Of a stretch of 64,000 nucleotides of DNA, positions 15,997 through 37,325 are shown piece after piece. How positions within the stretch are numbered: position 1 is the stretch's first letter; each line of letters opens with the position of its first letter. The stretch is from Chitiniphilus purpureus (GTDB taxonomy: Bacteria; Pseudomonadota; Gammaproteobacteria; Burkholderiales; Chitinibacteraceae). The position numbers were made by a program, and so were the translations under genes. The notes below the pieces were generated by a model. That model did not search any database. It was given only the letters and a program-made list of their open reading frames with translations, and had not been told where the DNA came from. The stretch spans positions 310,001 through 374,000 of the forward strand of contig NZ_CP106753.1 of the NCBI RefSeq assembly GCF_025642115.1, given 5' to 3'.

Positions 15997-17013
15997 GTGG
16001 GCGCACCATTGAAGCTTGTTTGTCCGGCGGGCAGCCTGCCCGCGCTGAAAACGGCGGTCGATCACGGCGCCGATGCGGTCTATGTCGGGTTTCGCAATGC
16101 CACCAATGCGCGCAACTTCGCCGGGCTCAACTTCGGCGAGGGACAGCTGAAGGAGGGGCTGGCCTATGCCAGGCGGCATGGGCGCGAGCTGCTGGTGGCG
16201 ATCAACACCTATGCCCAGGCCGGCCGGAGCGGGCTGTGGCGACAGGCGATCGACGATGCAGCCGCCCTTGGCGCCGACGCGGTGCTGCTCGCCGACCCCG
16301 GCCTGATGGCCTACGCCAGCCGCACCTGGCCGCAGTTGCGGCTGCATCTGTCGGTGCAGGGCTCCGCCACCAACGCGGCGGCGATCAAGATGGCCCACGA
16401 ATGCTTCGGCGTGCGCCGCGCGGTCCTGCCGCGGGTCCTCACGCTGCAGCAGGTGGCGCAGGTGATCGAGGCGCTCGCCAAGGCGGCGGTGCCGGTGGAC
16501 ATCGAGGTGTTCGGCTTCGGCAGCCTGTGCGTGATGGCCGAGGGGCGTTGCCTGCTGTCGAGCTACGCCACCGGCGAGGCGCCCAATCTGCACGGGGTCT
16601 GCTCGCCGGCAAGCCACGTACGCTGGGAAAACCAGGGCCAGACCACGCAGGCACGCCTGAACGGCATCCTGATCGACCGTTTCGCCCCGGACGAGAGCGC
16701 CGGCTATCCCACGCTGTGCAAGGGACGCTTCAATGTCGGCGACGCCACCTACTACGCGCTTGAGGAGCCGACCAGCCTGAACACCCTCGCGCTGCTGCCC
16801 GAGCTGATGCGCATCGGCGTGGCCGCGATCAAGGTGGAAGGCCGGCAGCGCAGCCCCGCCTATGTCGGCGCGGTCACCGCCACGCTGCGTGCGGCGCTCG
16901 ACGCGGCGGCACGGCCCGGATATTCAGTCGCCCGCGCCTGGTGCCACACACTGGACCCGCTTTCGGAAGGCCAGCAGCAGACACTCGGGGCCTACAGCCG
17001 GCCATGGCGATGA
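15997..17013 (+). CDS. ubiU: O2-independent ubiquinone hydroxylation protein UbiU
   Basis: A 338-residue peptidase-U32-family protein that with UbiV hydroxylates the ubiquinone ring without O2. The four Fe-S ligand cysteines are at 178, 185, 202 and 241, with the same spacing as in E. coli UbiU (169, 176, 193, 232). The start is GTG at 15997, preceded by GGGAGG. It forms a heterodimer with UbiV in known systems. Here ubiU is separated from ubiVT by an opposite-strand HD-GYP gene, so it must have its own promoter. Confidence 0.95.
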   Translation: MGAPLKLVCPAGSLPALKTAVDHGADAVYVGFRNATNARNFAGLNFGEGQLKEGLAYARRHGRELLVAINTYAQAGRSGLWRQAIDDAAALGADAVLLADPGLMAYASRTWPQLRLHLSVQGSATNAAAIKMAHECFGVRRAVLPRVLTLQQVAQVIEALAKAAVPVDIEVFGFGSLCVMAEGRCLLSSYATGEAPNLHGVCSPASHVRWENQGQTTQARLNGILIDRFAPDESAGYPTLCKGRFNVGDATYYALEEPTSLNTLALLPELMRIGVAAIKVEGRQRSPAYVGAVTATLRAALDAAARPGYSVARAWCHTLDPLSEGQQQTLGAYSRPWR

Positions 17014-17042
17014 TACGGCCGGCCTTTACGGCGTCACATCGC

Positions 17043-18212
17043 TCAGGCGTCGATGCTGCGCGCGGTATCGCCCCAGACGGCTTCGGGCCGGATGAACGCG
17101 CCGAAGCGATCGGCATCGACCGCCTCGCGGATCGCATACAAGGCCTCGGCGGTATCGCGCCGCAGCACCAACGACAACGGTGCGCCGCGCGGACCGATCA
17201 GGCTGGCCACCAGTGGACAGCTCGCCTTGCTGCCATGCTTGGCCACCACGCCCACTTCGCCATTGGCCAGCCGGACCAGTTGCCCCGGCGGGTAGACGCC
17301 GAGCGTCTTGATGAAATACCCGGCCGCCAGCAGGTCGACATCCTTGCCGCGCGCCAGCAGGATGCTGCGCAACACCACGTTGGGCAGTGCCGTCTGCCGG
17401 TAGGCCGATGGGGTCACCTGGGCGCAAAAGAGATCGGCCAGCGCCAGCAGGTGTGCCGCCGGACTGATCGCCTCGCCGCACAGGCCGGCCGGATAGCCAC
17501 TGCCGTCGCTGCGCTCGTGATGCTGCAGCACCGCCCCCAGCCACACCGGATCGGTCACACCGGCGCGCTGCAGCAGCGCGTGGGCCTCCTCGGGATGGCG
17601 CTGCAGCCCCTGCCGCTGCGCCGGCGACAACGGTCCGCGCTGCTGCTGCAAGGTGTCCTGCAGGCTGGCCATCGTCACATTCATGGTCAGGGCGGCACAG
17701 ACCACGGCGCGCACCGTTTCGGGCGGCAGCGCCATCGAGACGGCCGCCAGCCGGGCCACCACTGCCACATTGACCATGTGACGCGCCGGGTAGCGGCCGT
17801 CCTGGCGCAGCAGCACACGCGCCAGTGCCACATTCGGATCGCACCGGCTGGCGTTCTCGACCAGGGCGGCAAGCTGCATCACCTCGGCTTCCAGGCGCCG
17901 TGCCTGTATCCACGGAGTGGGATTCTGCAGCAGCTGCTCCAGCCGCTGCTGTGCCGCATCCAGCATGGCCAGCACCGATGGCGGCCGGGCCGAGCCGGGG
18001 ATGAGGCGTTCGCGCTGCGGCGCGTTGCGGGTGCGGGCCAGCGCCTCGCTGTCGGCATAGACGCCGATCTCCAGCAACCGCGCCAGCTGCGCCTCGCTGC
18101 CCACCCGTTGTCCCCGCGACAGCAGCAGCAGGCCCTTGCCGTCGAATACGTCCCAGGGCAGCGCCTGCCCGAGCTGCACATCGGTGCAACGGACCCGCGA
18201 ATACGATGCCAT
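17043..18212 (-). CDS. degenerate HD-GYP domain protein
   Basis: A 389-residue protein with the N-terminal segment usual in HD-GYP proteins (DVFDGKGLLLLSRGQRV) and an HD-GYP domain from about residue 130 to 300. Active members hydrolyse c-di-GMP through metals bound by HDxGK and HHExxDGSGYP motifs. Here the HHERSDGSGYPAGL half is intact but the HD half reads TMNVTMASL in place of LLHDIGK, so the metal site is broken. It probably acts as a binding or scaffolding protein, not as a phosphodiesterase. GGAGG precedes the ATG. It lies antisense between ubiU and ubiV. Confidence 0.85.
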   Translation of the reverse strand: MASYSRVRCTDVQLGQALPWDVFDGKGLLLLSRGQRVGSEAQLARLLEIGVYADSEALARTRNAPQRERLIPGSARPPSVLAMLDAAQQRLEQLLQNPTPWIQARRLEAEVMQLAALVENASRCDPNVALARVLLRQDGRYPARHMVNVAVVARLAAVSMALPPETVRAVVCAALTMNVTMASLQDTLQQQRGPLSPAQRQGLQRHPEEAHALLQRAGVTDPVWLGAVLQHHERSDGSGYPAGLCGEAISPAAHLLALADLFCAQVTPSAYRQTALPNVVLRSILLARGKDVDLLAAGYFIKTLGVYPPGQLVRLANGEVGVVAKHGSKASCPLVASLIGPRGAPLSLVLRRDTAEALYAIREAVDADRFGAFIRPEAVWGDTARSIDA

Positions 18213-18391
18213 GGCCCCTCCGTTGTAATTTTTATCGCATGCACAACACCAACAATCGCATCAATACCTGATTTTTCTTACATCATACGAGCAGCGGGCA
18301 ACAACGCGGCAATCCAGACAAAACCACGCGATAGCCAGTCGCGTTCAGCCGATATCCGGTCGATCCGCCCCGCCCTTCTCAGGAGCCGAAC

Positions 18392-19279
18392 GTGAAACTG
18401 ACTCTTGGTCCCTTACTGTACTATTGGCCCCGCGCGCAGATCCTGGCGTTCTACGAGGCGGCCCTGCAATGGCCACTCGATACCGTCTACCTGGGTGAGG
18501 CGGTGTGCGCGCGCCGCCATGAATTGCGCCTGGTCGATTGGCTGGCACTGGCCGCCGACGTCAAGGCCGCCGGCAAGACGCCGGTGCTGTCCAGCCAAGC
18601 ATTGCTGGAATCGGCCAGCGACCTGAACGGGCTGTCGCGGCTGGCAACCAGCGGCCATCTGCTGGAAGCCAACGATCTGGGGGCGGTGCAGGTGGCGCGC
18701 AGCGCGGGTGTCCCGTTCGTGGCAGGACCGCATCTGAACATCTACAACGGCCCCACGCTCGACTGGATGGCCGCGGCCGGCGCAGTGCGCTGGCTGCCGC
18801 CGCTGGAGCTGGGGCACGATGCCATCGCGGCGGTCATGGCGGAAAGGCAATGCCGGATCGAAACCGAGATCTTCGCCCACGGCCGGCTGCCGCTCGCCTT
18901 CTCTGCGCGCTGCTTCACCGCCCGGCATTACGGGCTGAACAAGGACAACTGCGAGTTCAAATGCCTGGCGCATCCGGATGGATTGCCGCTGGATACCCGC
19001 GAAGGCCAGCCCTTCCTGCGGTTGAACGGCATCCAGACCCAGTCGGCCGCCTGCCACACGGTATGGCCCCACCTGCCCCGACTTGCCGCGCTGCCGATCG
19101 ATGCGCTGCGCATCAGCCCGCAGGCGGCCCATACCGGCGAGATCGTCGCTGCCTACGCCGACCGGCTGGCCGGAGTGGCAACCGAGCCCGACTGGGCACG
19201 CTGGCATCCCGAAGGGTTAGTGGACGGCTACTGGCGCGGCACCGCCGGCATTGCCACACCGCAGGGGGTATCGGCATGA
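18392..19279 (+). CDS. ubiV: O2-independent ubiquinone hydroxylation protein UbiV
   Basis: A 295-residue U32-family partner of UbiU. Cys39, Cys174, Cys187 and Cys191 match the four Fe-S ligands of E. coli UbiV (39, 180, 193, 197), the last two in the NCEFKC motif. The ATG has AGGAG nine bases upstream. The stop overlaps the ubiT ATG (ATGA), so the two are translationally coupled. Confidence 0.95.
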   Translation: MKLTLGPLLYYWPRAQILAFYEAALQWPLDTVYLGEAVCARRHELRLVDWLALAADVKAAGKTPVLSSQALLESASDLNGLSRLATSGHLLEANDLGAVQVARSAGVPFVAGPHLNIYNGPTLDWMAAAGAVRWLPPLELGHDAIAAVMAERQCRIETEIFAHGRLPLAFSARCFTARHYGLNKDNCEFKCLAHPDGLPLDTREGQPFLRLNGIQTQSAACHTVWPHLPRLAALPIDALRISPQAAHTGEIVAAYADRLAGVATEPDWARWHPEGLVDGYWRGTAGIATPQGVSA

Positions 19280-22084: not shown

Positions 22085-23461
22085 TTACTCGGACACCTTG
22101 AACAGCGAGGCGCCCGGGTTGTCCGGGTCCAGCTCGGCCAGCTTCCCGGCCAGCCACTCTTTCCACAGGATATAGCCGGTGAGCAGCAGTGTGGCGACCG
22201 GCTTTTGGGCGACAAAGGCATAGAACAGCAGCGGATGGCTGGCGAGCATGGCCTCGCCGCTGACCTCCTGGGTGAAGCCGAGCACGGTGCGGAACAAGGC
22301 GTAGCTGGTCGGCAACGCGTACAGGGCGGTGATCAGCAGCATGAAGCCGTTGCGGTAATGCTGCGGCCGCTGGCACCACAGATACGCGAGGAACGGGATC
22401 AACAGGGTGGCGTGATAGTCGTGGCCGCGCCCGTACACCAGGAAGAACCACAGCGTGACAAAGCCGACGGCAAGCTCCAGCGGCTTATGACGCAAGGCGA
22501 TCGCCCCGACCAGTGTCACCACGATGCCGAACAGATAGCGCAGCACCAGGCTGGCCTGCGGGCTGACCAGCTCGCCCAGGAACGAGGCCATCGACTGCTC
22601 CTGGTTCCAGCGCGGCACATTGTATTTGAGGTAGTCGCTGCCGATGGCGAAGAACGGGTCGAGCAGCGTGCTGCGTGCCAGATACACGCCCTGCTCGATC
22701 GAATAACTGAAGAAGAACCACGGCACGTAGCCGAACAGCAGCGCCAGGCCGATCAGCGCCACGGTCTTCCACATCCGCCGCACCAGCAGCACCAGCCCGG
22801 CCGGCCCTAGCAGCGGCTTGCCGAAGGCGCTGATGATGAAGCCCAGCGCCGGGTTCTTCGGCTGCAGGAACACCAGCATCAGCGCCAGCACCGCCACGCT
22901 GTGGTACTGGCCCTGGTAGTAGAGCACGTACATCGGAAAGAAGAAGCCCAGCAGCGCGAACATCGCGTGATCGCGCAGCTGCCCGCCGCGGAAGGTGGCG
23001 ACATCGGCGGCGGCACGGCGTGCGAAGTGCCACAGGATGAACAGGTGCAGTCCCAGGTGCAACAGGTTGAGCAGCCAATAGCCGGCATAGGGCGGCAGGT
23101 AGGACAGCGGCACGCCCGGGAACAGGCACAGGTTGGGATGGGTGACCCAGTTGGTCGCCCACGGCCCGTACTGCGCGTAGTCCTGCGAGCTGGTGAACAC
23201 ATTGGTGCCGAAACGCACCGCCAGCCCGCAGCGCGGCAGGGTGAAATAGTCGTAGCCGCGCACGAAGCTGTCGCTATTGGGGCTGAGCCGGTTGAACAGC
23301 CAGAAGATCTGGCCGACAAACAGCAGCAGCGCACCGGCCACACCGGTCCACAGCGGGGCGAACGCCCACGTCGCGACGGGCGATGCGGGCTTGAGCGGCC
23401 AGGTTTCTACAGGGTTGCCGTTACTTAACCCCCCCCACCATGGGATCAGGTTTCCGAACAT
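22085..23461 (-). CDS. multi-pass membrane protein, GT-C/GT87-like
   Basis: A 458-residue protein with about ten hydrophobic helices. The start at 23461 is chosen for its AAGGAG Shine-Dalgarno. The first periplasmic loop (SPNSDSFVRGYDYFTLP) carries an Asp where GT-C glycosyltransferases keep theirs, and the layout resembles GT87 (DUF2029) mannosyltransferases that use polyprenyl-phosphate sugars. Assignment is by architecture only. It is the last gene of the operon, overlapping the upstream glycosyltransferase by 41 bp, and could receive the sugar made by that enzyme. Confidence 0.7.
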   Translation of the reverse strand: MFGNLIPWWGGLSNGNPVETWPLKPASPVATWAFAPLWTGVAGALLLFVGQIFWLFNRLSPNSDSFVRGYDYFTLPRCGLAVRFGTNVFTSSQDYAQYGPWATNWVTHPNLCLFPGVPLSYLPPYAGYWLLNLLHLGLHLFILWHFARRAAADVATFRGGQLRDHAMFALLGFFFPMYVLYYQGQYHSVAVLALMLVFLQPKNPALGFIISAFGKPLLGPAGLVLLVRRMWKTVALIGLALLFGYVPWFFFSYSIEQGVYLARSTLLDPFFAIGSDYLKYNVPRWNQEQSMASFLGELVSPQASLVLRYLFGIVVTLVGAIALRHKPLELAVGFVTLWFFLVYGRGHDYHATLLIPFLAYLWCQRPQHYRNGFMLLITALYALPTSYALFRTVLGFTQEVSGEAMLASHPLLFYAFVAQKPVATLLLTGYILWKEWLAGKLAELDPDNPGASLFKVSE

Positions 23462-24458
23462 GTCCACACTCCTTGGATGACGATTCTTCTTGTAATGGCA
23501 GCGCCGGCGACTGCCGCGCCGGTCGCCAACCTTGGGCGAAGTACAACGGACGCCCCTTGGTTTCATCAAAGATGCGCCCGAGGTACTCGCCGAGCACACC
23601 AATGAAGAAGAGTTGCACCCCGCCAAGGAACAGCATGGTCACCATGATGGTGGGGTAGCCTTGTACGTTCTCGCCCCAGAGCAGGGTCTTGGCGACGATC
23701 CACAGGCCATAGAGGAAGGCCAGCGCTGCCGTGGTCACGCCAAGGTAGGTGGCGATCTTCAGAGGGCCGATGGTGAACGAGGTGATGCCCTCAAGCGCGA
23801 AGTTCCACAGCTTCCAGTAGTTGAACTTGGTATCGCCCGCGGCGCGCGGATCGCGCCGGTATTCGAGCGCGGTGGACGGAAAGCCGATCCAGGCGAACAG
23901 CCCTTTCATGAAGCGGTGCTGCTCGCGCAGCTTGAGCAGCGCATCGACCGAGCGCCGGCTCATCAGCCGGAAGTCGCCGGTATCGCGCGGGATGCGCACC
24001 TTGCCGGACAGGTGGTCCATCAGCCGGTAGAACACCGCGGCGGTGGCCTTCTTGGCAGCACTCTCGCCATCGCGGTGGGTGCGGCGTGCATACACGGTGT
24101 CATAACCCTCGGCCGCCTTGGCCAACAGCGCCGGGATCAGCTCGGGCGGATCCTGCAGATCGGCGTCGATCAGCACCACCCAGTCGCCGTGCGCATGGTC
24201 GAGCCCGGCGGTCATCGCGATCTCCTTGCCGAAATTGCGCGACAGATCGACCGAGGCGGTACGCGGATCGGCGTTGCATAGCGCATCGATGATCGCCTGG
24301 GTGCGGTCGCGGCTGCCGTCGTTCACGTAGACCACCTCGCAACGGTAGTCCGGCAGGCTGTCGAACACCGCCCCCAGCCGCGCGTGGAACTGCCCGAGCA
24401 CGGCCTCTTCGTTGTAGGCCGGCACCACCACCGACAACAGCGGCTTCGTTTCACCCAT
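23421..24458 (-). CDS. polyprenyl-phosphate glycosyltransferase (GtrB-like)
   Basis: A 345-residue GT2 enzyme of the dolichol-phosphate-mannose-synthase/GtrB type, which transfers a sugar from a nucleotide donor to undecaprenyl phosphate. The GT-A domain has VVVPAYNEE, VNDGSRDRT and the metal-binding DADLQDPPE; two C-terminal membrane helices (about 225-300) follow, ending in GVLGEYLGRIFDETKGRP. It overlaps gtrA by 8 bp. GtrA, GtrB and a membrane glycosyltransferase in a row is the classic layout of O-antigen glucosylation modules. Confidence 0.92.
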   Translation of the reverse strand: MGETKPLLSVVVPAYNEEAVLGQFHARLGAVFDSLPDYRCEVVYVNDGSRDRTQAIIDALCNADPRTASVDLSRNFGKEIAMTAGLDHAHGDWVVLIDADLQDPPELIPALLAKAAEGYDTVYARRTHRDGESAAKKATAAVFYRLMDHLSGKVRIPRDTGDFRLMSRRSVDALLKLREQHRFMKGLFAWIGFPSTALEYRRDPRAAGDTKFNYWKLWNFALEGITSFTIGPLKIATYLGVTTAALAFLYGLWIVAKTLLWGENVQGYPTIMVTMLFLGGVQLFFIGVLGEYLGRIFDETKGRPLYFAQGWRPARQSPALPLQEESSSKECGHVRKPDPMVGGVK

Positions 24459-24828
24459 GACCCTGCTCCCGGAACACCCAGTTGCGACTACCGACGAAAT
24501 GAACGACGAAACAGGTTGCGGTCGCCACGCCCTGCGCCGCGAGGTAATGCCAGCGCCCGCCGTCCACCAGCAGCCCCATCAGGCCCGCGTTCAATCCCCA
24601 CAGGCCCAGCACCAGCAGGTAGTAGCGCGGCGCGGTCACCCGGTGTGCCGCATGGCTTTGGAAGGTGTAGCGCCGGTTGAGCGCATAGTTGACCAGCGCA
24701 CCTGCGATCGCGCCCGCGGTGGTGGCGACGACAACGCCCACCTGCAGCCGCACCAGCAGCCACAGCACGGCGAAATGCATGGCGGTGCCGGCGGCACCCA
24801 CCAATGTGAAGCGCGCCAGCCGGCTCAT
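24451..24828 (-). CDS. GtrA-family flippase
   Basis: A 125-residue membrane protein with four helices. FTLVGAAGTAMHFAVLWLLV, GALVNYALNRRYTF and the end FVGSRNWVFRE are GtrA signatures. GtrA proteins are thought to flip undecaprenyl-phosphate-linked sugars to the periplasm. Its ATG overlaps the stop codon of the upstream flavoenzyme by one base (TGATG), so it is translationally coupled. Confidence 0.92.
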   Translation of the reverse strand: MSRLARFTLVGAAGTAMHFAVLWLLVRLQVGVVVATTAGAIAGALVNYALNRRYTFQSHAAHRVTAPRYYLLVLGLWGLNAGLMGLLVDGGRWHYLAAQGVATATCFVVHFVGSRNWVFREQGHG

Positions 24829-26147
24829 CAGCCCAGCCGCTCCGCCAGTTCCCGGCCGAGCTTGCGCCCCTCGCGCACCGCATAGTTGGTGCCGCGGTCC
24901 TCCGGGTAGATCTGCGCCATCGAACACAGGTGGAACCCCGGCAGCGGGCCTGCCACCGGCGGGATCAGACTGCTGTAGCGCTTCTCCACCACCGGTTGCG
25001 ACCAGCGCGCCTTCCACACGTGGTGACGCTGGATCCAGCCGCGCTCCAGCTTGGGGAACATCTGCTGCAGGTACGGCAGCGCGAAGTCCAGCACCGCGTC
25101 GGCATCCATCCGGTACAGCGCATCGGTGTGCGGCAGGTATTTGGACAGGTAGACGATATGCCGGCCGCCGTAGGTTTCCGGCTTTTCGAAGTTGGTATGC
25201 TCGATCACCCCGACGAAGGGGAAGCTCGGGTCGTTGACGTTGAGCCAGTAGGTGTCCGACAGCGAACGGTCCAGCTCCAGCACCAGGCAGACATTGGCAA
25301 GGTAATGGATGCGTTCGAGCCGGGCCACGTAGTCGGCCGGGGCCCAGTCCCTGACCATGCCCGCCACCAGCGGCAACGCGGTGGTGGCGATCACCTGGTC
25401 GGCGGTGACGGTGCCGTTCGCGGTGTCGACCCGCCACAGCGCGCCGTCCGGGCGGATGGCAGTGACCGCCGCACCGGTCTCGATGCGCCCGCCCAGCTCG
25501 CGCACGCGCGCGGCCAGCGCCTCGGCCAACGCGACGAAACCACCCTTGAAGTAGGCCAGCCGCTCCTCGCCCCCCTTGCCGCGCGAGCCGCCGCGCAGCT
25601 TCAGCTTGTTCCAGAACCACACCGCCGAGATCTCATCGGCCACCGGACCGAACTTGCCCTTGAGCAGCGGCTCCCACACCACGCGGTAGACACGCTCGCC
25701 GCCCAGCTCCTTGAGCCATTCGGCGGCGGTCTTGTGCTCCAACGCCATCCAGTCGTCCACCCGGCGCGCACGCAGCGCCAAGAGGCCCAGCCGGATGCGG
25801 TCGGTGAACGCCAGCGGCGTGAAGTTCAACAGATCCCAGGGGGTGGAGAGCTTGAAGAAGTGGTTGGCGTAGTAGACGCCGGTGTTGGTCGGGTTGATCG
25901 CCACTTTGTGGTTCAGGCCCAGCTCGTCGATCAGCCTCATCACCTCGACGTCGTTGGTGAACCAGTGGTGGTAGAAACGATCGAGCTTCTCGCCGCCGAC
26001 CTCGAACGCGGCGGCAAGGCCGCCGATCTCCTGCTCGGCTTCAAGCACGGTGACGGCGATCCCCTGCTTGGCAAGCTCGTAGGCGACCGACAGGCCGGTG
26101 AATCCCCCGCCGACGATGGCGACGCGGGTGGTGTGGGCAAGGCTCAT
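24828..26147 (-). CDS. FAD-dependent oxidoreductase of the amine-oxidase/UGM-like type
   Basis: A 439-residue flavoprotein. VAIVGGGFTGLSVAYELAKQG is the dinucleotide-binding motif and VLEAEQEIGGLAA the ribose-binding one. KLDRFYHHWF, YFKGGFVALAEAL and the C-terminal GFHLCSMAQIYPEDRGTNYA fit the NAD(P)/FAD amine-oxidase family that includes protoporphyrinogen oxidase and UDP-galactopyranose-mutase relatives. It has no signal peptide. Sitting in a glycosyltransferase operon it may modify a sugar or the polyprenyl carrier; that is inference. It starts in an ATGA overlap with the gene before it. Confidence 0.8.
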   Translation of the reverse strand: MSLAHTTRVAIVGGGFTGLSVAYELAKQGIAVTVLEAEQEIGGLAAAFEVGGEKLDRFYHHWFTNDVEVMRLIDELGLNHKVAINPTNTGVYYANHFFKLSTPWDLLNFTPLAFTDRIRLGLLALRARRVDDWMALEHKTAAEWLKELGGERVYRVVWEPLLKGKFGPVADEISAVWFWNKLKLRGGSRGKGGEERLAYFKGGFVALAEALAARVRELGGRIETGAAVTAIRPDGALWRVDTANGTVTADQVIATTALPLVAGMVRDWAPADYVARLERIHYLANVCLVLELDRSLSDTYWLNVNDPSFPFVGVIEHTNFEKPETYGGRHIVYLSKYLPHTDALYRMDADAVLDFALPYLQQMFPKLERGWIQRHHVWKARWSQPVVEKRYSSLIPPVAGPLPGFHLCSMAQIYPEDRGTNYAVREGRKLGRELAERLG

Positions 26148-27121
26148 GGCATGGACTCTTTGGGAATGCGGGTACGGGTGGCGGCAAGATAGGCGCCGCC
26201 GGCCAGTGTCGGCGGCAGCCACAGCAGCGCATGCACCAGGAGGGCGTAGGCGGTTGCGGCGGCCTGGCCGTTGCCGAGCGCGGTCATTGCGCGCACGGTG
26301 AAGTAATCGAAGGTGCCCACATAGCCGGGCGTGCTCGGGATCAGCGTGGCAAGCGTGCCCACCGGCAGCGCCAGCCAGCCTGCCAGCGGCACGGCCAGCG
26401 CCGGCACCGCGAGCGCGGCGCACCAGAACACCGCCCCCTCGCACAGCCAGGCCAGGAGCGACCAGCCGGCCAACCGCACCATGGTGCCGCCGCCGGCCAG
26501 GTGGGTGAGGGTGGCCAGGCCACGCTCGATCTCGGCGTTGAGCTTGTCGCCCAGCCGGGGCGCCAACCGCGCCGCCAGCCGGCCGCCGGCCCGCGCCAGC
26601 GGGGCGAAGCCCTGCGGGAACAGCAGCACGGCCAGGATCGCCAGGCCCAGGGCCAGCAGCACGGCGCTGCCGACGCCCGCCAGTGCACCGGCATCGAGCC
26701 CGAAGGCGGCGAGCGCCGCGCCGAACAGCACCAGCACCATCAACAGGTCCAGCAGCCGCTCGACGAACAAGGTGGCCAGCACGGTACCGGACCGCACGCC
26801 CAGCCGGTCGTTGAAGGCGAAGGCGCGCAGCACGTCGCCGGCTCGCAGCGGCAGCACGTTGTTCAGCGCAAAGCTGGCCAGCAGCGGCCCGGCGCAGTCG
26901 CGCCATGCCAGCTGCGGGTTGTCGCGGGCCAGCATGGCACGCCAGCGTGCGATGCGGCAGGCGTAGCCGCCGCAGAAGGCGATGAGCGCCAGCGCCACCC
27001 AGCCGGGGTCGGTGCCGGCAAAGGCGCGGGCCAGTTCGGCCGGGTCGATCTGCCGCACGAACAGCCAGACAAAACCGGCCGCCAGCACCAGCCCGAGCAC
27101 CGGGCGCGCATGGCGCTTCAC
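26144..27121 (-). CDS. AglD/lysylphosphatidylglycerol-synthase-TM-type membrane protein
   Basis: A 325-residue protein with seven or eight helices belonging to the LPG_synthase_TM (UPF0104) family. Seen: LLASFALNNVLPLRAGDVLRAF, a charged LFVERLLDLLM helix and the end motif LIPSTPGYVGTFDYF. Members include the membrane half of MprF and archaeal AglD-like proteins, often beside polyprenyl-phosphate glycosyltransferases; a flippase or transferase role is likely but unproven. The start is GTG at 27121, overlapping the upstream stop as GTGA. Confidence 0.82.
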   Translation of the reverse strand: MKRHARPVLGLVLAAGFVWLFVRQIDPAELARAFAGTDPGWVALALIAFCGGYACRIARWRAMLARDNPQLAWRDCAGPLLASFALNNVLPLRAGDVLRAFAFNDRLGVRSGTVLATLFVERLLDLLMVLVLFGAALAAFGLDAGALAGVGSAVLLALGLAILAVLLFPQGFAPLARAGGRLAARLAPRLGDKLNAEIERGLATLTHLAGGGTMVRLAGWSLLAWLCEGAVFWCAALAVPALAVPLAGWLALPVGTLATLIPSTPGYVGTFDYFTVRAMTALGNGQAAATAYALLVHALLWLPPTLAGGAYLAATRTRIPKESMP

Positions 27122-28098
27122 TTGCGATCCACCACCGGGCTGCGCGACAGCGCGGGTGCATGCTCGCCGTAGCCCAGGTATTCCTGCACCACATACAGCG
27201 GCCGATGCTTGACCTCGTTGTAGATCCGGCCGATGTACTCGCCGAGGATGCCCACACAGATCAGCTGCACCCCGCCAAGGAACAGCACCGCGATCATCAG
27301 CGCGGTCCAGCCCTCGACCCACTCGTTGGTGAAGATGCGCATCGCCAGCGCATAGAGAATGCCCAGCAGCGCCAGCGACGCCGCCGACAGCCCAAGGCCG
27401 ATCGACATCTGCAGCGGCTTGGTCGAGAACGACAGGATGCCGTCGGTGGCGAACCGCAGCATCTTGCGCAGTGGATACTTGGACTCGCCGGCGAAGCGCT
27501 CGGCGCGCTTGTACGGCAATGCGGTCTGCTTGAATCCCACCCAGCTCACCATGCCGCGCACGAAGCGGTCGCGCTCGGGCATTGCCCGCAGCGTATCGAC
27601 CACATGCCGGCTCATCAGCCGGAAGTCGCCGGTATCGAGCGGGATGGGCACGTCGGAGAGCCGGTTCAGCAAGCGGTAGAAACCGCGTGCGGTGGCAAGC
27701 TTGAATGCCGATTCGCCGGGACGCTCGGTGCGGGTGCCGTAGACCACGTCGTAGCCTTCGCGCCATTTGGCGACCATCTGATGCACCACTTCGGGCGGGT
27801 CCTGCAGGTCGGCGTCGATCAGCACCACCGCGTCGCCGCGAGCGGCGTCGATGCCGGCGGTGACGGCGATCTGGTGGCCGAAGTTGCGGGCAAAGCCGAT
27901 CACTCGGATGCGTGGGTCTTCCTGGGCGAAGCTGCGCAGCAGCGCCCGGGTGCGGTCGCGGCTGCCGTCGTCGATGAAGATGAGCTCGACCTCAAGGTCG
28001 CGCAGCTCGGCGCAGAAGGCCGTCAGGCGCTTCATGGTCTCGCCGATGACTTCTTCCTCGTTGTAGCAGGGCACCACAATGGAAAGCAGTGGGCTCAC
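27118..28098 (-). CDS. polyprenyl-phosphate glycosyltransferase (DPM1/ArnC-like)
   Basis: A 326-residue GT2 enzyme, paralogous to the one at 23421-24458. VVPCYNEEE, IDDGSRDRT and DADLQDPPEV mark the GT-A domain; two membrane helices follow near residues 230-290, ending GILGEYIGRIYNEVKHRP. It should load a sugar onto undecaprenyl phosphate. GTG at 28098 is preferred because it overlaps the upstream stop (GTGA) and has GAGGTG eight bases upstream; another in-frame GTG lies at 28125. Confidence 0.9.
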   Translation of the reverse strand: MSPLLSIVVPCYNEEEVIGETMKRLTAFCAELRDLEVELIFIDDGSRDRTRALLRSFAQEDPRIRVIGFARNFGHQIAVTAGIDAARGDAVVLIDADLQDPPEVVHQMVAKWREGYDVVYGTRTERPGESAFKLATARGFYRLLNRLSDVPIPLDTGDFRLMSRHVVDTLRAMPERDRFVRGMVSWVGFKQTALPYKRAERFAGESKYPLRKMLRFATDGILSFSTKPLQMSIGLGLSAASLALLGILYALAMRIFTNEWVEGWTALMIAVLFLGGVQLICVGILGEYIGRIYNEVKHRPLYVVQEYLGYGEHAPALSRSPVVDRK

Positions 28099-30119
28099 GG
28101 CTTGTTCACCTCGCGATGGATCCACAGGCCGGCCAGCGGATTGTCACTGAATGGCTTCCAGTAGTAGTAGCCGCCGATGGCCGCGTTGATGGTGTTGAAC
28201 GCCTGCGGATTGGCCTGGTTGTCCGCGGGCATCCAGACGATGTAGTCGACCTTGTGCCGCGCCAGCCAGTTGGGCATGTCCGGCAGCTCGCCCTTGTAGA
28301 ACGCCTTGATCAGGTTCGACTCGTTCCAGACCGACTGCGGCGCGCCGTGCCACAGGCTCACATGGTTGGGCCAGCCCAGCATCGACACCTGCTGCGAGAA
28401 CATCGCCACCAGCGTCTGGTTGGTGTAGGCGTCGCCCAGCCAGTTTTCCAGCACGATGCCGCGCGGCGCGCTGCGCAGATACTTCACCAGATCGCGGTTG
28501 ACCGGCTCACGGACGAACCAGGCCGCGCCGTCGAGCTTGCCGGCGTCGGACTTGGGCGTGTACCACCAGTAGCGTGCCACGTCGAAGGCGTAGGAGCAGA
28601 TCAGTAGCAGCGATGCCGCCGCGGCCATCCTGACCCAACGGCGCGCACTGGCAAGCGCGATCGCACCGCACGCCAGCACGCCGCCGCTGTACAGCCAGCC
28701 CCACCACTTCATCGTGGTATTGGTCCGGTCGTATTTGCCGCCCGAGGGATCGTCGACATACACCAGCTCGGACAGCACCAGCATGGCGCCGAACGCCAGC
28801 ACGAAGCAGACCGCCAGCGGCCGGGTGCGCCGCTCGACCAGCGCCAGCGCCATCAGCACCAGCAACGGCCAGAAGAAGATCACAAAGCGCAGCGGCGGGG
28901 TATGCGCCAGCATCGGCACCAGCTTGATCGGGGTCTGGATGGCCTGCGCGGCCAGCCCGGACAGGTACGGGTAGACCAACAGCGCGCCCAGGAGGCCGCC
29001 GCCGATCACCGCCCGCCAATCCGGCGGATCACCACGCCATTGCCGCCATGCCGCCCAGCTCAGCAGCAACATCACCGAGAACGGGAAGATCCAGGTATTG
29101 GTGATCAGCATCACCGGCACTGTCAGCGCGAACAGCCCCTGCGCCAGCCGCCGCCGCACCACCTCGCCCTCCGCCGCCGGGGTTTCCAGCCAGGCCAAGA
29201 GGCCCAGCGCCAGGAACAGCAGGAAGAACCCGCCCACCGGCGGATGGTAGTCGCCCAGGAAGAACTGGTAGCCGAAGTTCTCCATCGGCAGATCGTGCGG
29301 CTCGAAATCCGGGGTCGGCTTGTTCTCAGGCCGCATCAGCGGGAACAACGCCCGGCCGAAGTCGGTATTGACCTTGGTATCGAAATTGCCGATGAAGCGC
29401 GCGCTGCCCCACATGTATTCGGTGGCCGCCCACTCGTTGGGGTGGTTGGCCGGCTGGCCGACGGCGAAGTGGATCAACGGGGTGATGCCCGTGCCGCCCA
29501 GCGCGATCGCCGCCGCCAGCAGCCAGCGTCCATAGCGTTGCGTGATGAAGCGGCTGGCGAAATACCACACCAGCGTCAGCGACAGGCCCATCATCAGCCC
29601 GAAGGCGACGTTGTAGGCAAAGCCCGGCTGCCAGCCGAACAGCCGACCCAGCAGCGCCGCACCGTAGTGCATGAACGCGTAGTAGAAATCGAAGCGGAAC
29701 GGCGGGTACCAGATATCGAGCGGCGGCAGCCGTTCTCCCGGGTAGTAGTTGAGCATGAAGTAAAGATCGGCCGCGCGCTCACCCATGTTGGGATAGATAT
29801 TGGGGAACACGAACTTCCAGGCGAAGGCGGCTGCGAAGCAGATGATGAACACCCGCTCGGCGTGGCGGAACGCCACCGTGCGCGTCTCGGCCCGAAAGAG
29901 ATACAGCACGAACAGCATGCCGGCGGTGCTGATGGGCCACAGCCACGACAACCGCCCCAGACCGACGAAATGCTCGGTGGCGCAGAACAGCAAGGCCACC
30001 AGCAGCACGCTGCAGGCGCGCGCCAGCGGATACGGCAGCCAGCGGCCGGCGATCAGCGAAGCCCCGGCCAGGTGCAGCCACAAGAGCAGCAGGCTGCCCA
30101 ACAGGAATATCGATTGCAT
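28095..30119 (-). CDS. DUF2298-like giant membrane protein, copy 2
   Basis: A 674-residue protein with about thirteen hydrophobic helices and a soluble C-terminal tail of about 140 residues. FRFDFYYAFMHYGAALLGRL, MENFGYQFFLGDYHPPVGGF and ELVYVDDPSGGKYDRTNTTM match the pattern of the DUF2298 (YYY) family, which has a GT-C-like layout with acidic loops. It is clearly homologous to the gene upstream. A role as a lipid-linked-sugar-using glycosyltransferase is inferred from architecture and from the following glycosyltransferase gene, with which it overlaps. Confidence 0.78.
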   Translation of the reverse strand: MQSIFLLGSLLLLWLHLAGASLIAGRWLPYPLARACSVLLVALLFCATEHFVGLGRLSWLWPISTAGMLFVLYLFRAETRTVAFRHAERVFIICFAAAFAWKFVFPNIYPNMGERAADLYFMLNYYPGERLPPLDIWYPPFRFDFYYAFMHYGAALLGRLFGWQPGFAYNVAFGLMMGLSLTLVWYFASRFITQRYGRWLLAAAIALGGTGITPLIHFAVGQPANHPNEWAATEYMWGSARFIGNFDTKVNTDFGRALFPLMRPENKPTPDFEPHDLPMENFGYQFFLGDYHPPVGGFFLLFLALGLLAWLETPAAEGEVVRRRLAQGLFALTVPVMLITNTWIFPFSVMLLLSWAAWRQWRGDPPDWRAVIGGGLLGALLVYPYLSGLAAQAIQTPIKLVPMLAHTPPLRFVIFFWPLLVLMALALVERRTRPLAVCFVLAFGAMLVLSELVYVDDPSGGKYDRTNTTMKWWGWLYSGGVLACGAIALASARRWVRMAAAASLLLICSYAFDVARYWWYTPKSDAGKLDGAAWFVREPVNRDLVKYLRSAPRGIVLENWLGDAYTNQTLVAMFSQQVSMLGWPNHVSLWHGAPQSVWNESNLIKAFYKGELPDMPNWLARHKVDYIVWMPADNQANPQAFNTINAAIGGYYYWKPFSDNPLAGLWIHREVNKP

Positions 30120-30147
30120 TTAAGTGATTCTCCCCCTGAGGCGCGGC

Positions 30148-32178
30148 TCAGCGCCGCTCCCATACGCCGAAGCTCGCACCGTCCGCATCCGCGATCGGGC
30201 GCCACAGATAGCTGAGCGCCAGCTGCTGCTGCAGCTGCGCAAAGGCCGCCGGATCGCGCCGCTGGTCGTAGCGGCTCCACACCACGTAGCGCACGTTGCG
30301 CGTGTTCAGCCATTCGGCCGCGTTCGGCAGCGCGCCGCGGTAGAGCTGGCGCACCGTCTCGGCATCGCGCGGCACATAGGCCGGCTCGCCGCGCCATTGC
30401 CCCACGTGCGCCGGCCAGCCGTTCACCGCCGGTTGCCCCGCATGCAACGCAAACGCCGAAGTCTGCATATAGGCCCCGCCTTCCAGCCCTTCCAGCACCA
30501 GCCCACGCGGTGCCGCACGCAGGTATTCCAGGATGCGGCGGTGTACCGGGTCGGACATCAGCCAGCCGTCGCCGGCCAGCTTGCCGGCATGCGGCTTGGG
30601 CTGCAGCGCCAGGTACTGCACCTGCGGCAGCGCATACGCCAGCACCGCCACCAGCGGCACGGCGGCCAGCCAGCGCCAGATGCGGCGTCCGGCGCCGATC
30701 AGCACCGCCGACAGCAGCGCCAGCGCCCCCGGGAACAGCCAGGACCACCACTTGAGCGTGGTATTGAAGCGGTTGTAACGGTCGCCGGACGGGTCGTCCA
30801 CGTATACCGTCTCGGTCAAGAGCAGGCACAGCGCCACGCCGAGCGCGGCCCACGCCCCCCAGCGCGCCTCCGGGCTGTCTTCACCGAAACGGCGTATCCA
30901 GCACAGCGCCACCAGCCACAGCACCGGCCACCACACCGCCACCCATTGCACCAACGGGGTGTGGTCCACCCCTTGCACCACCCGCAGCGGCACGGCCAGT
31001 GAATTGAGCGAGAAATGCGTCAGGAACGGATACAGCAGCGCCAGCCCGGCCACGGCGCCGCCCAGCAGCGCACCATACAACACCCGCTTGCCCTGGCTCA
31101 GGCGCCACCCCACCCAGGCCACGACCAGCAGCCCCTGCAGCGGCAGAATCCAGCTGTTGAGCGCGATCGACGCCGGCACGCTCATGCCCAGCAGCGCATG
31201 CAGCCAGCCGCAGACCTGCGTCTCGCTGTCGGCTGCGTCACGGTTGCACGGCATGCCGCCGGTTTCGATCCGGGCAATCAGGGCCAGCGCCAGGAACAGC
31301 AGCAGGAAACCGGCCAGCGGTGGGTGCAGATCGCCCAGGTAGATGAAGTAGCCGATGTTCTCCAGCGGCAGGTCGCGCGGTCCCCATGGCTGCTGCAGCA
31401 GGTCGGCCGGGCCGCTGCCGAACAGCCGGCGCCCCCACTCGGCCGTGATGTTCTGGTCGTACACCCCGGTAAAACGGGTATTGCTCCACAGCCGGGTGAT
31501 CGCCGTCGCCGCATCGAAAGGGCCCTGGAACAACAGGGGCAGCAACGGCGCCACGCCATTGCCACCCGCCACCGTGGCAGCAGTGATCAGCGCACGCCAG
31601 CGGCGGCTTGCCACCCAGCGCGCCACCGTCGACCACACCAGGCTGCCCAAAAGGCCGATCAGCACGGCAAAGCCCAGGTTCATGCTCCAGCCGGCCGACA
31701 ACTGGAGCAGGCGCCCCATCAGTGCGGTGGCGTAATGCAGCAGCGCGTAATACGCATCGAAGCGAAAGCCCGGCAACCACTGGTCCGGCGGCGGCAGCGT
31801 CGCCCCGTCCATATAGTTGCGCACGAAATACAGATCGGTCAGGTGCTCGGCGGTGACATCGATGTCCGGGAACAGGAAGCGCCACAGGAGCGCCCAGGCG
31901 AACGGCAGGATGAAAGGCAGCTCGCCGCGCCAGAACCCCGGATCGGCCACCTTGTGGCGCAGGATCAGCAGCGCGGCCGCCAGCGTGAACGGCCACAGGC
32001 CGCGCAACGGGCCAAGGCCGAAGAAGTGTTCGACGAAGAACGCGCCCAGCACCAACAGGAACAGGACGACGGCCCGCGCCAGATGGCGGTCCGACCAGCG
32101 CGCGCCGCCCAGCTGGCCGAGGGCGGCCAGATGCACGAGCAGCAGCAGCACCGTCAATGCGGTGAAGATCAGGCTCAT
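30148..32178 (-). CDS. DUF2298-like giant membrane protein, copy 1
   Basis: A 676-residue, multi-pass protein, first in the operon. It shares with copy 2 the motifs FRFDAYYALLHYATALMGRL, LENIGYFIYLGDLHPPLAGF and ETVYVDDPSGDRYNRFNTTL, and a soluble tail with the arrangement YLRAAPRGLVLEGLEGGAY. The start at 32178 has GGAGG eight bases upstream; earlier in-frame ATGs lack a Shine-Dalgarno. The two copies are separated by 28 bp and look like an old tandem duplication that has diverged strongly. Confidence 0.78.
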   Translation of the reverse strand: MSLIFTALTVLLLLVHLAALGQLGGARWSDRHLARAVVLFLLVLGAFFVEHFFGLGPLRGLWPFTLAAALLILRHKVADPGFWRGELPFILPFAWALLWRFLFPDIDVTAEHLTDLYFVRNYMDGATLPPPDQWLPGFRFDAYYALLHYATALMGRLLQLSAGWSMNLGFAVLIGLLGSLVWSTVARWVASRRWRALITAATVAGGNGVAPLLPLLFQGPFDAATAITRLWSNTRFTGVYDQNITAEWGRRLFGSGPADLLQQPWGPRDLPLENIGYFIYLGDLHPPLAGFLLLFLALALIARIETGGMPCNRDAADSETQVCGWLHALLGMSVPASIALNSWILPLQGLLVVAWVGWRLSQGKRVLYGALLGGAVAGLALLYPFLTHFSLNSLAVPLRVVQGVDHTPLVQWVAVWWPVLWLVALCWIRRFGEDSPEARWGAWAALGVALCLLLTETVYVDDPSGDRYNRFNTTLKWWSWLFPGALALLSAVLIGAGRRIWRWLAAVPLVAVLAYALPQVQYLALQPKPHAGKLAGDGWLMSDPVHRRILEYLRAAPRGLVLEGLEGGAYMQTSAFALHAGQPAVNGWPAHVGQWRGEPAYVPRDAETVRQLYRGALPNAAEWLNTRNVRYVVWSRYDQRRDPAAFAQLQQQLALSYLWRPIADADGASFGVWERR

Positions 32179-35327: not shown

Positions 35328-37325
35328 TCAGTCGGTGCAGCAGGCGGCGCGGCGCGCCAGCAATTCGGCATCGCACTTGGGGCAGAACGGATGGTGGCCC
35401 GACAGGTATCCATGTCTGGGACAGATCGAGAAGGTCGGCGTCACCGTCACGTACGGCAGCCGGAAATTGCCGAGCGCGCGGCGCACCAGCTGCTTGCACG
35501 CCTCGCTGGATGAGATGGCCTCGTTCATATACAGGTGCAGCACGGTGCCGCCGGTGTACTGGCATTGCAGCGCCTCCTGCCGCGTCAGCGCGTCGAACGG
35601 ATCGTCGGTGAAACCGGCCGGCAGCTGCGTGGAATTGGTGTAGTAGGGCTGCCCGGCGGTGCCGGCCTGCAGGATGTCGGGATAGCGCTTGCGATCCTCG
35701 CGCGCGAAGCGGTAGGTGGTGCCTTCGGCCGGTGTGGCCTCCAGGTTGTACAGATGCCCCGTCTCCTCCTGGAAGCGAGTGATCCGATCCCGGATATGGG
35801 CGACCAGCCGCAGCGCGAACGCGTGCCCCCAGCTGGTGGTGATGTCCTCGCGATCGCCGGTGAAGTTGCGGATCATCTCGTTCACGCCGTTCACCCCCAG
35901 CGTGGAGAAATGGTTGCGCAGCGTGCCAAGGTAGCGCTTGGTATATGGGTAGAGGCCCGCATCCATCAGCCGCTGGATCACCTTGCGCTTCAGCTCCAGC
36001 GACTGCCGCCCCAGTTCGAGCAGATGGTCCACCCGCGCGAACAGGCCCGGTTCGTCGCCCTGGAATTCATGGCCGATGCGCGCGCAGTTGAGCGTCACCA
36101 CCCCCAGGCTGCCGGTCTGCTCGGCGCTGCCAAAGAGGCCGTTGCCGCGCTTGAGCAGCTCGCGCAGATCGAGCTGCAGCCTGCAGCACATCGAGCGCAC
36201 CATGTTTGGCTCCAGCTCCGAGTTCACGAAGTTCTGGAAGTAGGGCAGCCCGTACTTGGCCGTCATCTCGAACAGGCGCGTGGTATTGGGGTGGTCCCAG
36301 TCGAAATCCCGGGTGATGTTGTAGGTGGGGATCGGGAAGGTGAACACGCGGCCCTTGGCATCGCCTTCCATCATCACTTCGATGTAGGCGCGATTGATCA
36401 GGTCCATTTCGGCCTGCAGCTCGCCATAGGTGAACGGGCATTCCTCGCCGCCCACATAGGGCACTTCGCCACGCAGGTCCTCGGGGCAGGTCCAGTCGAA
36501 GGTGAGGTTGGTGAACGGCGTCTGCGTGCCCCAGCGGCTCGGCACGTTGAGGTTGTAGATCAGTTCCTGGATGTATTGCTTCACCTGCGCATAGCCAAGC
36601 CGGTCGGTCCGCACCAGCGGTGCCATGTAGGTATCGAAACTGGAGAAGGCCTGGGCGCCTGCCCATTCGTTCTGCAACGTGCCAAGGAAATTGACGATCT
36701 GGCCGATCGCGGCCGAGAAATGCCGCGGTGGGCGGGCCTCCACCTTGCCGGGCACACCGTTGAACCCTTCGTGCAGCAGCCGGCGCAGCGACCAGCCGGC
36801 ACAGTAGCCGCACAGCATGTCCAGATCATGGATATGGATCGCCCCACTGCGGTGCGCTTCGCCGATGGCGGACGGGTAGACATGGTTGAGCCAGTAGTTG
36901 GCGGTGACCTTGCCACTGGTGTTCAGGATCAGCCCACCCAGGCTGAAACCCTGGTTGGCGTTGGCATTCACGCGCCAGTCGGTGCGCTCCAGATATTCGT
37001 TGATGCTGTCGGCCACATCGACCACCGTGCGCGTGTCTTCGCGCAGCCGCCGATGCGCCTCCCGGTAGGCGATGTAGGCACGTGCCGTGGCCAGCAGACC
37101 TGCAGCCAGCAACGTGTTCTCGACCGCGTCCTGGATGAGCTCGATGCCAGGCGTGGCGCCGGCAGGCAGTCGCGCGACGGCAGTGAGTGCAAGTTCGGCG
37201 GCCTTCGCCTCGTCGAATTCGCCGGTGACGGCGCCGGCCTTGGCAAGGGCGTCGGCGATCTTGGTGGCGTCGAACGGCACGATGCGGCCATCACGCTTCT
37301 CGACGTACTGCGGGTGCCCGGACAT
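35328..37325 (-). CDS. nrdD: anaerobic ribonucleoside-triphosphate reductase NrdD, catalytic part
   Basis: A 665-residue class III ribonucleotide reductase that makes dNTPs without oxygen. An ATP-cone (residues 1-95, YVEKRDGRIVPFDATKIADA) gives allosteric control. The barrel contains NLNVPSRWGTQTPFTNLTFDW, SMCCRLQLDLREL with candidate active-site Cys, and LGTLRNHFSTLGVNGVNE. The protein ends with the zinc site CPRHGYLSGHHPFCPKC and stops, so the glycyl-radical tail is missing and is encoded by the next gene. Regulation by oxygen and dNTP state is indicated by FNR and NrdR boxes in the promoter. Confidence 0.95.
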   Translation of the reverse strand: MSGHPQYVEKRDGRIVPFDATKIADALAKAGAVTGEFDEAKAAELALTAVARLPAGATPGIELIQDAVENTLLAAGLLATARAYIAYREAHRRLREDTRTVVDVADSINEYLERTDWRVNANANQGFSLGGLILNTSGKVTANYWLNHVYPSAIGEAHRSGAIHIHDLDMLCGYCAGWSLRRLLHEGFNGVPGKVEARPPRHFSAAIGQIVNFLGTLQNEWAGAQAFSSFDTYMAPLVRTDRLGYAQVKQYIQELIYNLNVPSRWGTQTPFTNLTFDWTCPEDLRGEVPYVGGEECPFTYGELQAEMDLINRAYIEVMMEGDAKGRVFTFPIPTYNITRDFDWDHPNTTRLFEMTAKYGLPYFQNFVNSELEPNMVRSMCCRLQLDLRELLKRGNGLFGSAEQTGSLGVVTLNCARIGHEFQGDEPGLFARVDHLLELGRQSLELKRKVIQRLMDAGLYPYTKRYLGTLRNHFSTLGVNGVNEMIRNFTGDREDITTSWGHAFALRLVAHIRDRITRFQEETGHLYNLEATPAEGTTYRFAREDRKRYPDILQAGTAGQPYYTNSTQLPAGFTDDPFDALTRQEALQCQYTGGTVLHLYMNEAISSSEACKQLVRRALGNFRLPYVTVTPTFSICPRHGYLSGHHPFCPKCDAELLARRAACCTD

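Follow-up and report, generated by a model that had tools for sequence, protein, structure and literature searches.

The stretch of Chitiniphilus purpureus DNA analysed here (contig NZ_CP106753.1, positions 310,001 to 374,000 of the forward strand; 64,000 nucleotides, hereafter the window) carries on its minus strand eight collinear genes, A to H, whose open frames and starts were read from the window sequence. The host genome, from the family Chitinibacteraceae, is a single contig of 4.19 Mb. A sequence-only reading had taken the eight genes for a translationally coupled operon of a lipid-linked glycan system corresponding to no named pathway; the setting in lipid-linked glycosylation is supported here, and literature searches, which covered part of the literature, likewise gave no named pathway with this exact set. 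Comparison with related loci shows that the operon is a stack of cassettes rather than one indivisible pathway. From its first gene to its last it comprises:

30148..32178, minus strand: A, DUF2298 membrane protein of the upstream-copy type, 676 amino acids (aa); PF10060 74.7 bits against a cut-off of 27.8; upstream-copy branch
28095..30119, minus strand: B, DUF2298 membrane protein of the downstream-copy type, 674 aa; PF10060 118.4 bits; downstream-copy branch
27118..28098, minus strand: C, GtrB/DPM1-type polyprenyl-phosphate glycosyltransferase of the triad lineage, 326 aa; GTG start; PF00535 133.9 bits
26144..27121, minus strand: D, LPG_synthase_TM/UPF0104 putative lipid-sugar flippase, 325 aa; GTG start; PF03706 172.2 bits
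24828..26147, minus strand: E, flavin adenine dinucleotide (FAD)-dependent oxidoreductase of the PRK07233/NF005560 family, 439 aa; NF005560 519.4 bits; PF01593 133.2 bits
24451..24828, minus strand: F, putative flippase of the GtrA/DPMS transmembrane family, 125 aa; PF04138 86.4 bits against a cut-off of 26.1
23421..24458, minus strand: G, second GtrB/DPM1-type glycosyltransferase, 345 aa; PF00535 117.1 bits; groups with GT2s beside DUF2298 and GtrA
22085..23461, minus strand: H, GT-C-like protein with multiple membrane spans and no assigned family, 458 aa; about ten hydrophobic segments; homologues found

The coordinates and overlap sequences bear out the earlier statement that six of the seven junctions overlap: B/C and C/D by four bases each (GTGA), D/E by four (ATGA), E/F by one (TGATG), F/G by eight and G/H by 41, with a gap of 28 bases at A/B as computed from the gene coordinates. 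The motif GGAGGAG lies 5' of A and AAGGAG 5' of H, third-position GC content is 0.83-0.91 across all eight genes, and a promoter scan gave no promoter-like site on the minus strand, the total number of sites being at chance level. Related loci carry homologues of each of the eight genes (tblastn), and the closest named relatives at the locus by identity of B are Chitiniphilus eburneus (79%) and C. shinanonensis (77%).

Pfam agrees with the sequence-only reading on two DUF2298 proteins, two Glycos_transf_2 proteins, LPG_synthase_TM, Amino_oxidase and GtrA, and, as that reading had also held, no nucleotide-sugar, Wzx or Wzy family is matched by the eight proteins. The two proteins it had called DPM1/GtrB-type transferases, C and G, are GtrB-type: over about 300 residues they match the solved GtrB sll0501 (5ekp) at 309 and 326 bits, compared with 177 and 155 bits for ArnC and 62 and 47 bits for dolichol monophosphate mannose synthase, and they match the PgfS and ArnC models of NCBIfam below the model cut-offs. 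Though 51% identical, they lie in different branches of the GT2 tree, from which rows under 200 aa were left out (the loader fragment of locus L112 among them). G clusters with GT2s beside DUF2298 and GtrA in Chitinilyticum, Jeongeupia and others, and, after correction of two labels, a single branch (24 rows, 98/93) takes in all 19 true loaders of the triad C-D-E; its remaining five members stem from genomes in which DUF2298 is not matched, at loci carrying GtrA and a Dpy19-like protein. The "triad" label was given by distance and wrongly took in two G orthologues (L025, L026); with these included, a single clade for triad GT2s was rejected (p-AU 0.046). As for the candidate flippases, D scores 172.2 bits with PF03706 (cut-off 33.4) and 59.2 bits with TIGR00374 (cut-off 43.2) and qualifies as a stand-alone UPF0104/COG0392 protein, while F is the sole PF04138 (GtrA-family) match in the host genome; a flippase role is plausible for both.

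E is an oxidoreductase of the Amino_oxidase type whose score with NF005560 lies well above the cut-off of 252. Its profile finds phytoene desaturase (67.9 bits), protoporphyrinogen oxidase (56.8 bits) and UDP-galactopyranose mutase (48.9 bits) in PDB, and its invariant polar or charged residues are R189, E195, N303, E316, N319, Q384, D417 and R418. An identification as HpnE was discarded at 108 bits, far below the NCBIfam cut-off of 283, as was one as UDP-galactopyranose mutase, with no mutase family among 17 Pfam matches and a partial PDB match (1i8t, the 48.9 bits above). Relatives of E are frequent in the protein database, at least 5909 of 8000 candidates scored reaching an E-value <= 0.001.

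A and B, both above the PF10060 cut-off, are 37% identical to each other and do not reach the cut-off of Chlor_Arch_YYY (TIGR03662, 300.25; 86.3 and 108.6 bits). PF10060 is matched in 28 of the 43 Chitinibacteraceae genomes and in four of the 369 genomes sampled across the class (three over the cut-off), the host's own genome included in each count; both bacteria and archaea have such matches, and a search of the plasmid collection with B itself gave no hit. The same literature searches found no functional study of DUF2298, which appears in the gene table of a Chloroflexi genome study. Invariant or near-invariant residues in the predicted loops are E114, D135 and R159; D290 and H292; and D457, N467 and K471. 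In a quick tree of 115 rows (rows below 560 aa dropped, those above 760 aa trimmed to the last 720 residues) the proteobacterial tandems split by position, with one branch for upstream copies (35 rows, support 99) and another for downstream copies (39 rows, support 98), the exceptions being the Nevskiales loci L088 and L091, whose second protein is divergent. In an Iodobacter-type genus (L029-L033) both genes are kept, at separate places, by eight of nine genomes, and the four genomes of this genus in the tree each carry one DUF2298 of each type. The copies have come apart to distant places there (L059-L062 and L071 as against L029, L030, L032 and L033). Since the copy types branch separately and these genomes keep both, the pair is an old duplication of which both types are usually retained.

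In H an invariant Asp71 lies in the first long loop, and positive residues favour the N-terminal side (17.4 versus 4.5), with the Asp71 loop on the opposite side; this is a GT-C-like layout by analogy with the description of GT-C enzymes in PMC11127046. The earlier label "GT87-like" found no support: GT87 was not matched in a Pfam scan of 11 members, H included, and H itself has no Pfam family above cut-off and no NCBIfam or PDB sequence match. Ten homologues of it are listed at an E-value <= 0.001 out of 8000 candidates scored, one of them bearing DUF2029 in its NCBI name.

The neighbourhood set consists of the best 80 loci of 102 confirmed candidates, from named genomes. The window and both other Chitiniphilus loci read (L025, L026) share a collinear set of all eight genes, and the arrangement is therefore more than chance. 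No locus read outside Chitiniphilus has the full set; A-E are shared with other genera of Chitinibacteraceae, and elsewhere GtrA-GT2, not the triad, comes after the DUF2298 pair. The single eight-gene system of the sequence-only reading is thus not supported in that form, three sub-blocks occurring in other combinations beyond Chitiniphilus; lack of joint conservation, which that reading had itself named as telling against such a system, is half borne out, being found outside the genus and not within it. Of the 71 loci with at least 2.5 kb of sequence after DUF2298, 36 have the start of a GtrB-type GT2 within that distance (31 on the same strand, five on the opposite one), a lower bound, as over-extended GT2 frames were missed (L026, L027, L049), and GtrA lies within the same distance in 20 of 71. 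Where 7.8 kb of downstream sequence is available, a GT2 is found within 2.5 kb in 29 of 58 loci (27 on the same strand) as against one of 58 (none on the same strand) at 5-7.8 kb, the single match in that control interval being the triad loader of L038.

The identity of the downstream cassette follows the B tree. In a branch of 11 rows (the window and ten loci, from Chitiniphilus, Chitinolyticbacter, Silvimonas, Amantichitinum, Iodobacter and two Iodobacter-like rows from metagenome-assembled genomes) the triad with LPG and FAD proteins comes next in 11/11; in a second of 14 rows GtrA comes next in ten, with none detected in four Methylococcales rows; and in a third of nine rows (Motilimonas, Psychromonas, Cellvibrionaceae and others) GT2 and then GtrA follow in eight. 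The fork joining the three branches is left unresolved by the quick tree. The order C-D-E is also kept on the Methylococcales contigs L133 and L134 (7.9 and 7.3 kb), where DUF2298 is not matched, and in a second Deefgea copy (L137), which sits in an apparent surface polysaccharide cluster and has next to it, downstream, a 679-aa protein that matches no Pfam family. Deefgea and two Andreprevotia loci have the triad on the other strand than the pair, some kilobases away. Because it occurs without the pair, and because the link between E and DUF2298 is weak outside the family (counts below), the triad behaves as an independent cassette that has been joined to the DUF2298 pair in Chitinibacteraceae. 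The position of H is occupied by a Dpy19-like protein in Deefgea and the two Andreprevotia loci, and GtrA-GT2-transferase is therefore itself a replaceable cassette. Compared with the triads of L038, L041, L050, L133, L134 and L137, C is 81-85%, E 72-80% and D 49-66% identical, and outside Chitiniphilus and Chitinolyticbacter A is 39-51% and B 43-61% identical; as C and E change little while the membrane proteins diverge, a constant donor with changing acceptors is suggested. The simplest history would start from a core of A-B-GtrA-GT2; C-D-E would have been inserted between B and F, and genera with A-E only would have lost F-G. The differing branching order of the A copies stands against it.

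Within the family, E (E-value <= 1e-60) is found in 21 of the 43 genomes, and 21/21 of these have a DUF2298 match on the same contig at most 8 kb away. Put otherwise, E is present in 21 of the 28 genomes with DUF2298 and in none of the 15 without (Fisher p 1.5e-6, kinship ignored). Among the 369 genomes sampled across the class three have a close E (E-value <= 1e-90), and the plasmid collection searched with E gave one match, in Embleya, at 49.8% identity and without an annotated feature. A distant subfamily of E (28-31% identity) was read in seven loci. In five of these (L107, L108, L110, L111, L136) it lies among UbiA-HAD, DprE1-like, DprE2-like and epimerase genes, four of the five also carrying GtrA; L135 has an epimerase and GtrA, and L109 has none of this set. 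Such UbiA-HAD/DprE1-like/DprE2-like/NAD-epimerase/distant-E clusters recur in proteobacteria (L107:3301-10706, L136:5448-11010) and look like a lipid-linked pentofuranose pathway with an extra flavoenzyme and epimerase. The thread common to the neighbourhoods of E is polyprenyl-linked sugars.

These patterns lead to a proposal for the operon as a whole, supported by the GtrB type of C and G, the GtrA family of F, the PF03706 match of D, the recurrence of loaders beside DUF2298 and the presence of members of other transferase families (Dpy19, DIE2/ALG10) in some of the same neighbourhoods. From these we infer that the operon probably makes two kinds of polyprenyl-phosphate-linked sugar at the cytoplasmic face of the membrane, flips them and uses them outside. 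In the first cassette, C would use a nucleotide sugar to load undecaprenyl phosphate, E would alter the lipid-linked sugar or, less likely, the carrier, D would flip the altered product, and the pair A/B would transfer the flipped sugar; in the second, G would load another sugar onto lipid, F would flip the donor made by G, and H, or A and B too, would perform the transfer. The acceptor may be a periplasmic or surface glycan or protein from genes elsewhere. For E, modification of the lipid-linked sugar is ranked first, at about an even chance. A broader version, offered as speculation that we hold somewhat doubtful, would see in C-D-E a hitherto unrecognised, horizontally mobile donor factory of a dedicated GtrB-type loader, an MprF/AglD-type flippase and a flavoenzyme, with E rebuilding the lipid-attached sugar (for instance by ring contraction, epimerisation or keto-sugar formation, one enzyme doing what the DprE1/DprE2 pair does) or making a dolichol-like carrier, and in DUF2298 a new family of paired transferases that takes up this donor.

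Several observations weigh against this proposal. For the transferase role of the DUF2298 proteins, which the sequence-only reading had called GT-C-like, sequence and profile methods gave no link to a known GT-C family: a Pfam scan of 38 DUF2298 members matched no relevant one, the DUF2298 profile had one chance match in PDB (E-value 2.2), and hhalign of DUF2298 with an alignment of three Dpy19-like sequences did not reach significance (probability 1.1%), its best stretch overlapping the conserved acidic loop, a hint only. The Dpy19-like profile itself matched nothing in PDB, and H showed no similarity when aligned with DUF2298 or with an ALG10-like alignment. No loader was detected within 2.5 kb in 35 of the 71 DUF2298 loci, 18 of these being Verrucomicrobiota by their titles and three (L026, L027, L049) having a loader by tblastn. 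Of 31 DUF2298 genomes outside the family, to which 32 of the 80 loci led, two possess a close E (77-80%), on different contigs from DUF2298, and a third possesses a distant E alone (29%). The triad itself is not intact in two more distant loci: a nucleotidyltransferase-like gene separates C from D in L112, and L113 has D apart from C-E. Finally, Andreprevotia and Jeongeupia fall on the Chitiniphilus side by their A copies (17 rows, support 100) and beside Chitinilyticum and Deefgea by their B copies (14 rows, support 99), so that the two copies have had partly separate histories, and the link between donor cassette and transferase is accordingly seen for B and less clearly for A.

Three other explanations have to be set beside this one. 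E may act on the lipid instead, saturating or reducing the polyprenyl carrier to a dolichol-like form for the triad loader and eukaryote-like transferases. Its best functionally named NCBIfam model is after all that of an isoprenoid enzyme, HpnE, phytoene desaturase outscores UDP-galactopyranose mutase in PDB, and its relatives recur with two modes of loading, GT2 with LPG and UbiA-HAD with DprE1/DprE2-like proteins; yet these HpnE and PDB scores are all weak superfamily matches, and the many invariant polar and charged residues suit a sugar-phosphate substrate at least equally. Carrier saturases require an electron donor, and no such protein was matched by Pfam among the eight. Carrier reduction is placed second for E and appears rather unlikely. 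A similarly modest weight falls to a linear pathway, the picture drawn by the sequence-only reading, in which the eight genes would build a single two-sugar decoration and A, B and H would draw on both donors one after the other. The tight overlaps and the collinearity of the three Chitiniphilus loci speak for it, and the G lineage adjoins the DUF2298 pair in Chitinilyticum and Jeongeupia, so that G may also feed A/B; near the pair, however, other genera have the triad alone or GtrA-GT2 alone, so that neither donor seems required for the other, and the homologues of H number ten among the 8000 candidates scored.

Least probable of the three, and in our view improbable, is that the DUF2298 proteins are transporters, polymerase-like or electron-transport proteins, with the lipid-linked sugar exported for enzymes elsewhere. 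The missing sequence link to any GT-C family speaks for it, and a computational database places DUF2298 under the electron transport chain (PMC12828279); the conserved acids, His, Arg and Lys of the loops could nevertheless be catalytic, and loaders recur as neighbours.

Other observations concern the wider surroundings. The genes flanking the operon resemble unrelated housekeeping genes, judging from their translations, and no acceptor can thus be named from the neighbours. Among them, again read from translations, are a peptidase-U32-like pair at window positions 15997-19279, which we take to be UbiU/UbiV-like, and an anaerobic ribonucleotide reductase-like gene at 35328-37325. Two matches to Wzy_C (the O-antigen-ligase family) in the genome indicate that candidate acceptor pathways may exist. 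A clue to the donor sugar might come from the triad variant of L112 (L112:1009-6688), which has a sugar-nucleotidyltransferase-like gene (read by eye) between loader and flippase and, downstream, a membrane protein of 654 aa. A bacterial protein of the DIE2/ALG10 family, known as the eukaryotic dolichyl-phosphate-glucose (Dol-P-Glc) glucosyltransferase family, stands directly upstream of DUF2298, GT2 and GtrA (L056:8680-9984, 124.9 bits, cut-off 27), with cluster mates at L057:8600-9949 and L054:652-1923 (the Pfam scan was of L056 only). Dpy19-family (PF10034) proteins adjoin GtrA and/or GT2 in L050:13347-15347, L041:13370-15370 and L038:13390-15396 and in L143-L148; the match in DUF2298-type neighbourhoods has 34.7 bits (cut-off 27.2), and across Chitinibacteraceae Dpy19 is matched in 8/43 genomes, 3/43 over the cut-off. 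Six family genomes without a DUF2298 match have, at the loci read, GtrA beside a Dpy19-like protein; five of them also have a C-type GT2 close by. As DPY19 products are C-mannosyltransferases (PMC8433626), bacterial genes of this family raise the question of bacterial C-mannosylation. The position of DUF2298 beside loaders and flippases, in two old paralogous copies, gives the family a testable role. Should E indeed remodel sugars on the lipid, the few reactions known at that stage, DprE1/E2 being an example (PMC11127046), would gain a further type.

The operon may be compared with several known systems, and precedents for its logic are three-component periplasmic glycosylation (PMC11127046) and archaeal UPF0104 neighbourhoods (PMC5898192). 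As in gtrABC O-antigen glucosylation, which combines GtrA and GtrB with a serotype-specific GT-C enzyme, a GtrA protein (F) and a GtrB-type protein (G) are followed by a GT-C-like one (H), whereas the operon has two loaders and two flippase families and contains a flavoenzyme and the DUF2298 pair as well, and its H is without a recognised family. With the pentofuranose systems and the mycobacterial decaprenylphosphoryl ribose and arabinose (DPR/DPA) pathway it would share a lipid-linked donor that is made, sometimes modified, flipped and used by a GT-C enzyme (PMC11127046), and the distant E subfamily keeps company with UbiA-HAD, DprE1-like, DprE2-like and epimerase genes in 5/7 loci; its loader is, however, a GT2 instead of a UbiA-type protein, and no DprE1/E2 or MATE family was matched. 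The DprE1-like neighbour of distant E is a FAD_binding_4 protein, in contrast to the Amino_oxidase type (PF01593) of the operon's E, and a DprE1/DprE2 epimerase system was set aside for the operon, in which neither a FAD_binding_4 oxidase nor an SDR reductase was matched. UPF0104 has been argued to be the flippase part of AglD and MprF, and in archaea its neighbours include an AglD-like glycosyltransferase and a distant relative of PMT/STT3 (PMC5898192). C and D correspond to the same two parts as separate genes, with a possible transferase adjoining, but the operon is bacterial and has a flavoenzyme, and a PMT/STT3 likeness of DUF2298 is not supported by sequence. The pgf genes of Streptococcus mutans (PMC5856776) differ in having an epimerase in place of the flavoenzyme, one GT2 only, and PgfM1, described as belonging to a PMT-2 subfamily. 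By analogy, then, the operon would work like gtrABC, the pentofuranose systems, AglD/UPF0104 and pgf without showing membership in any one of them: the overall logic is already known, and what is new is the cassette of loader, flippase and flavoenzyme together with the paired DUF2298 proteins.

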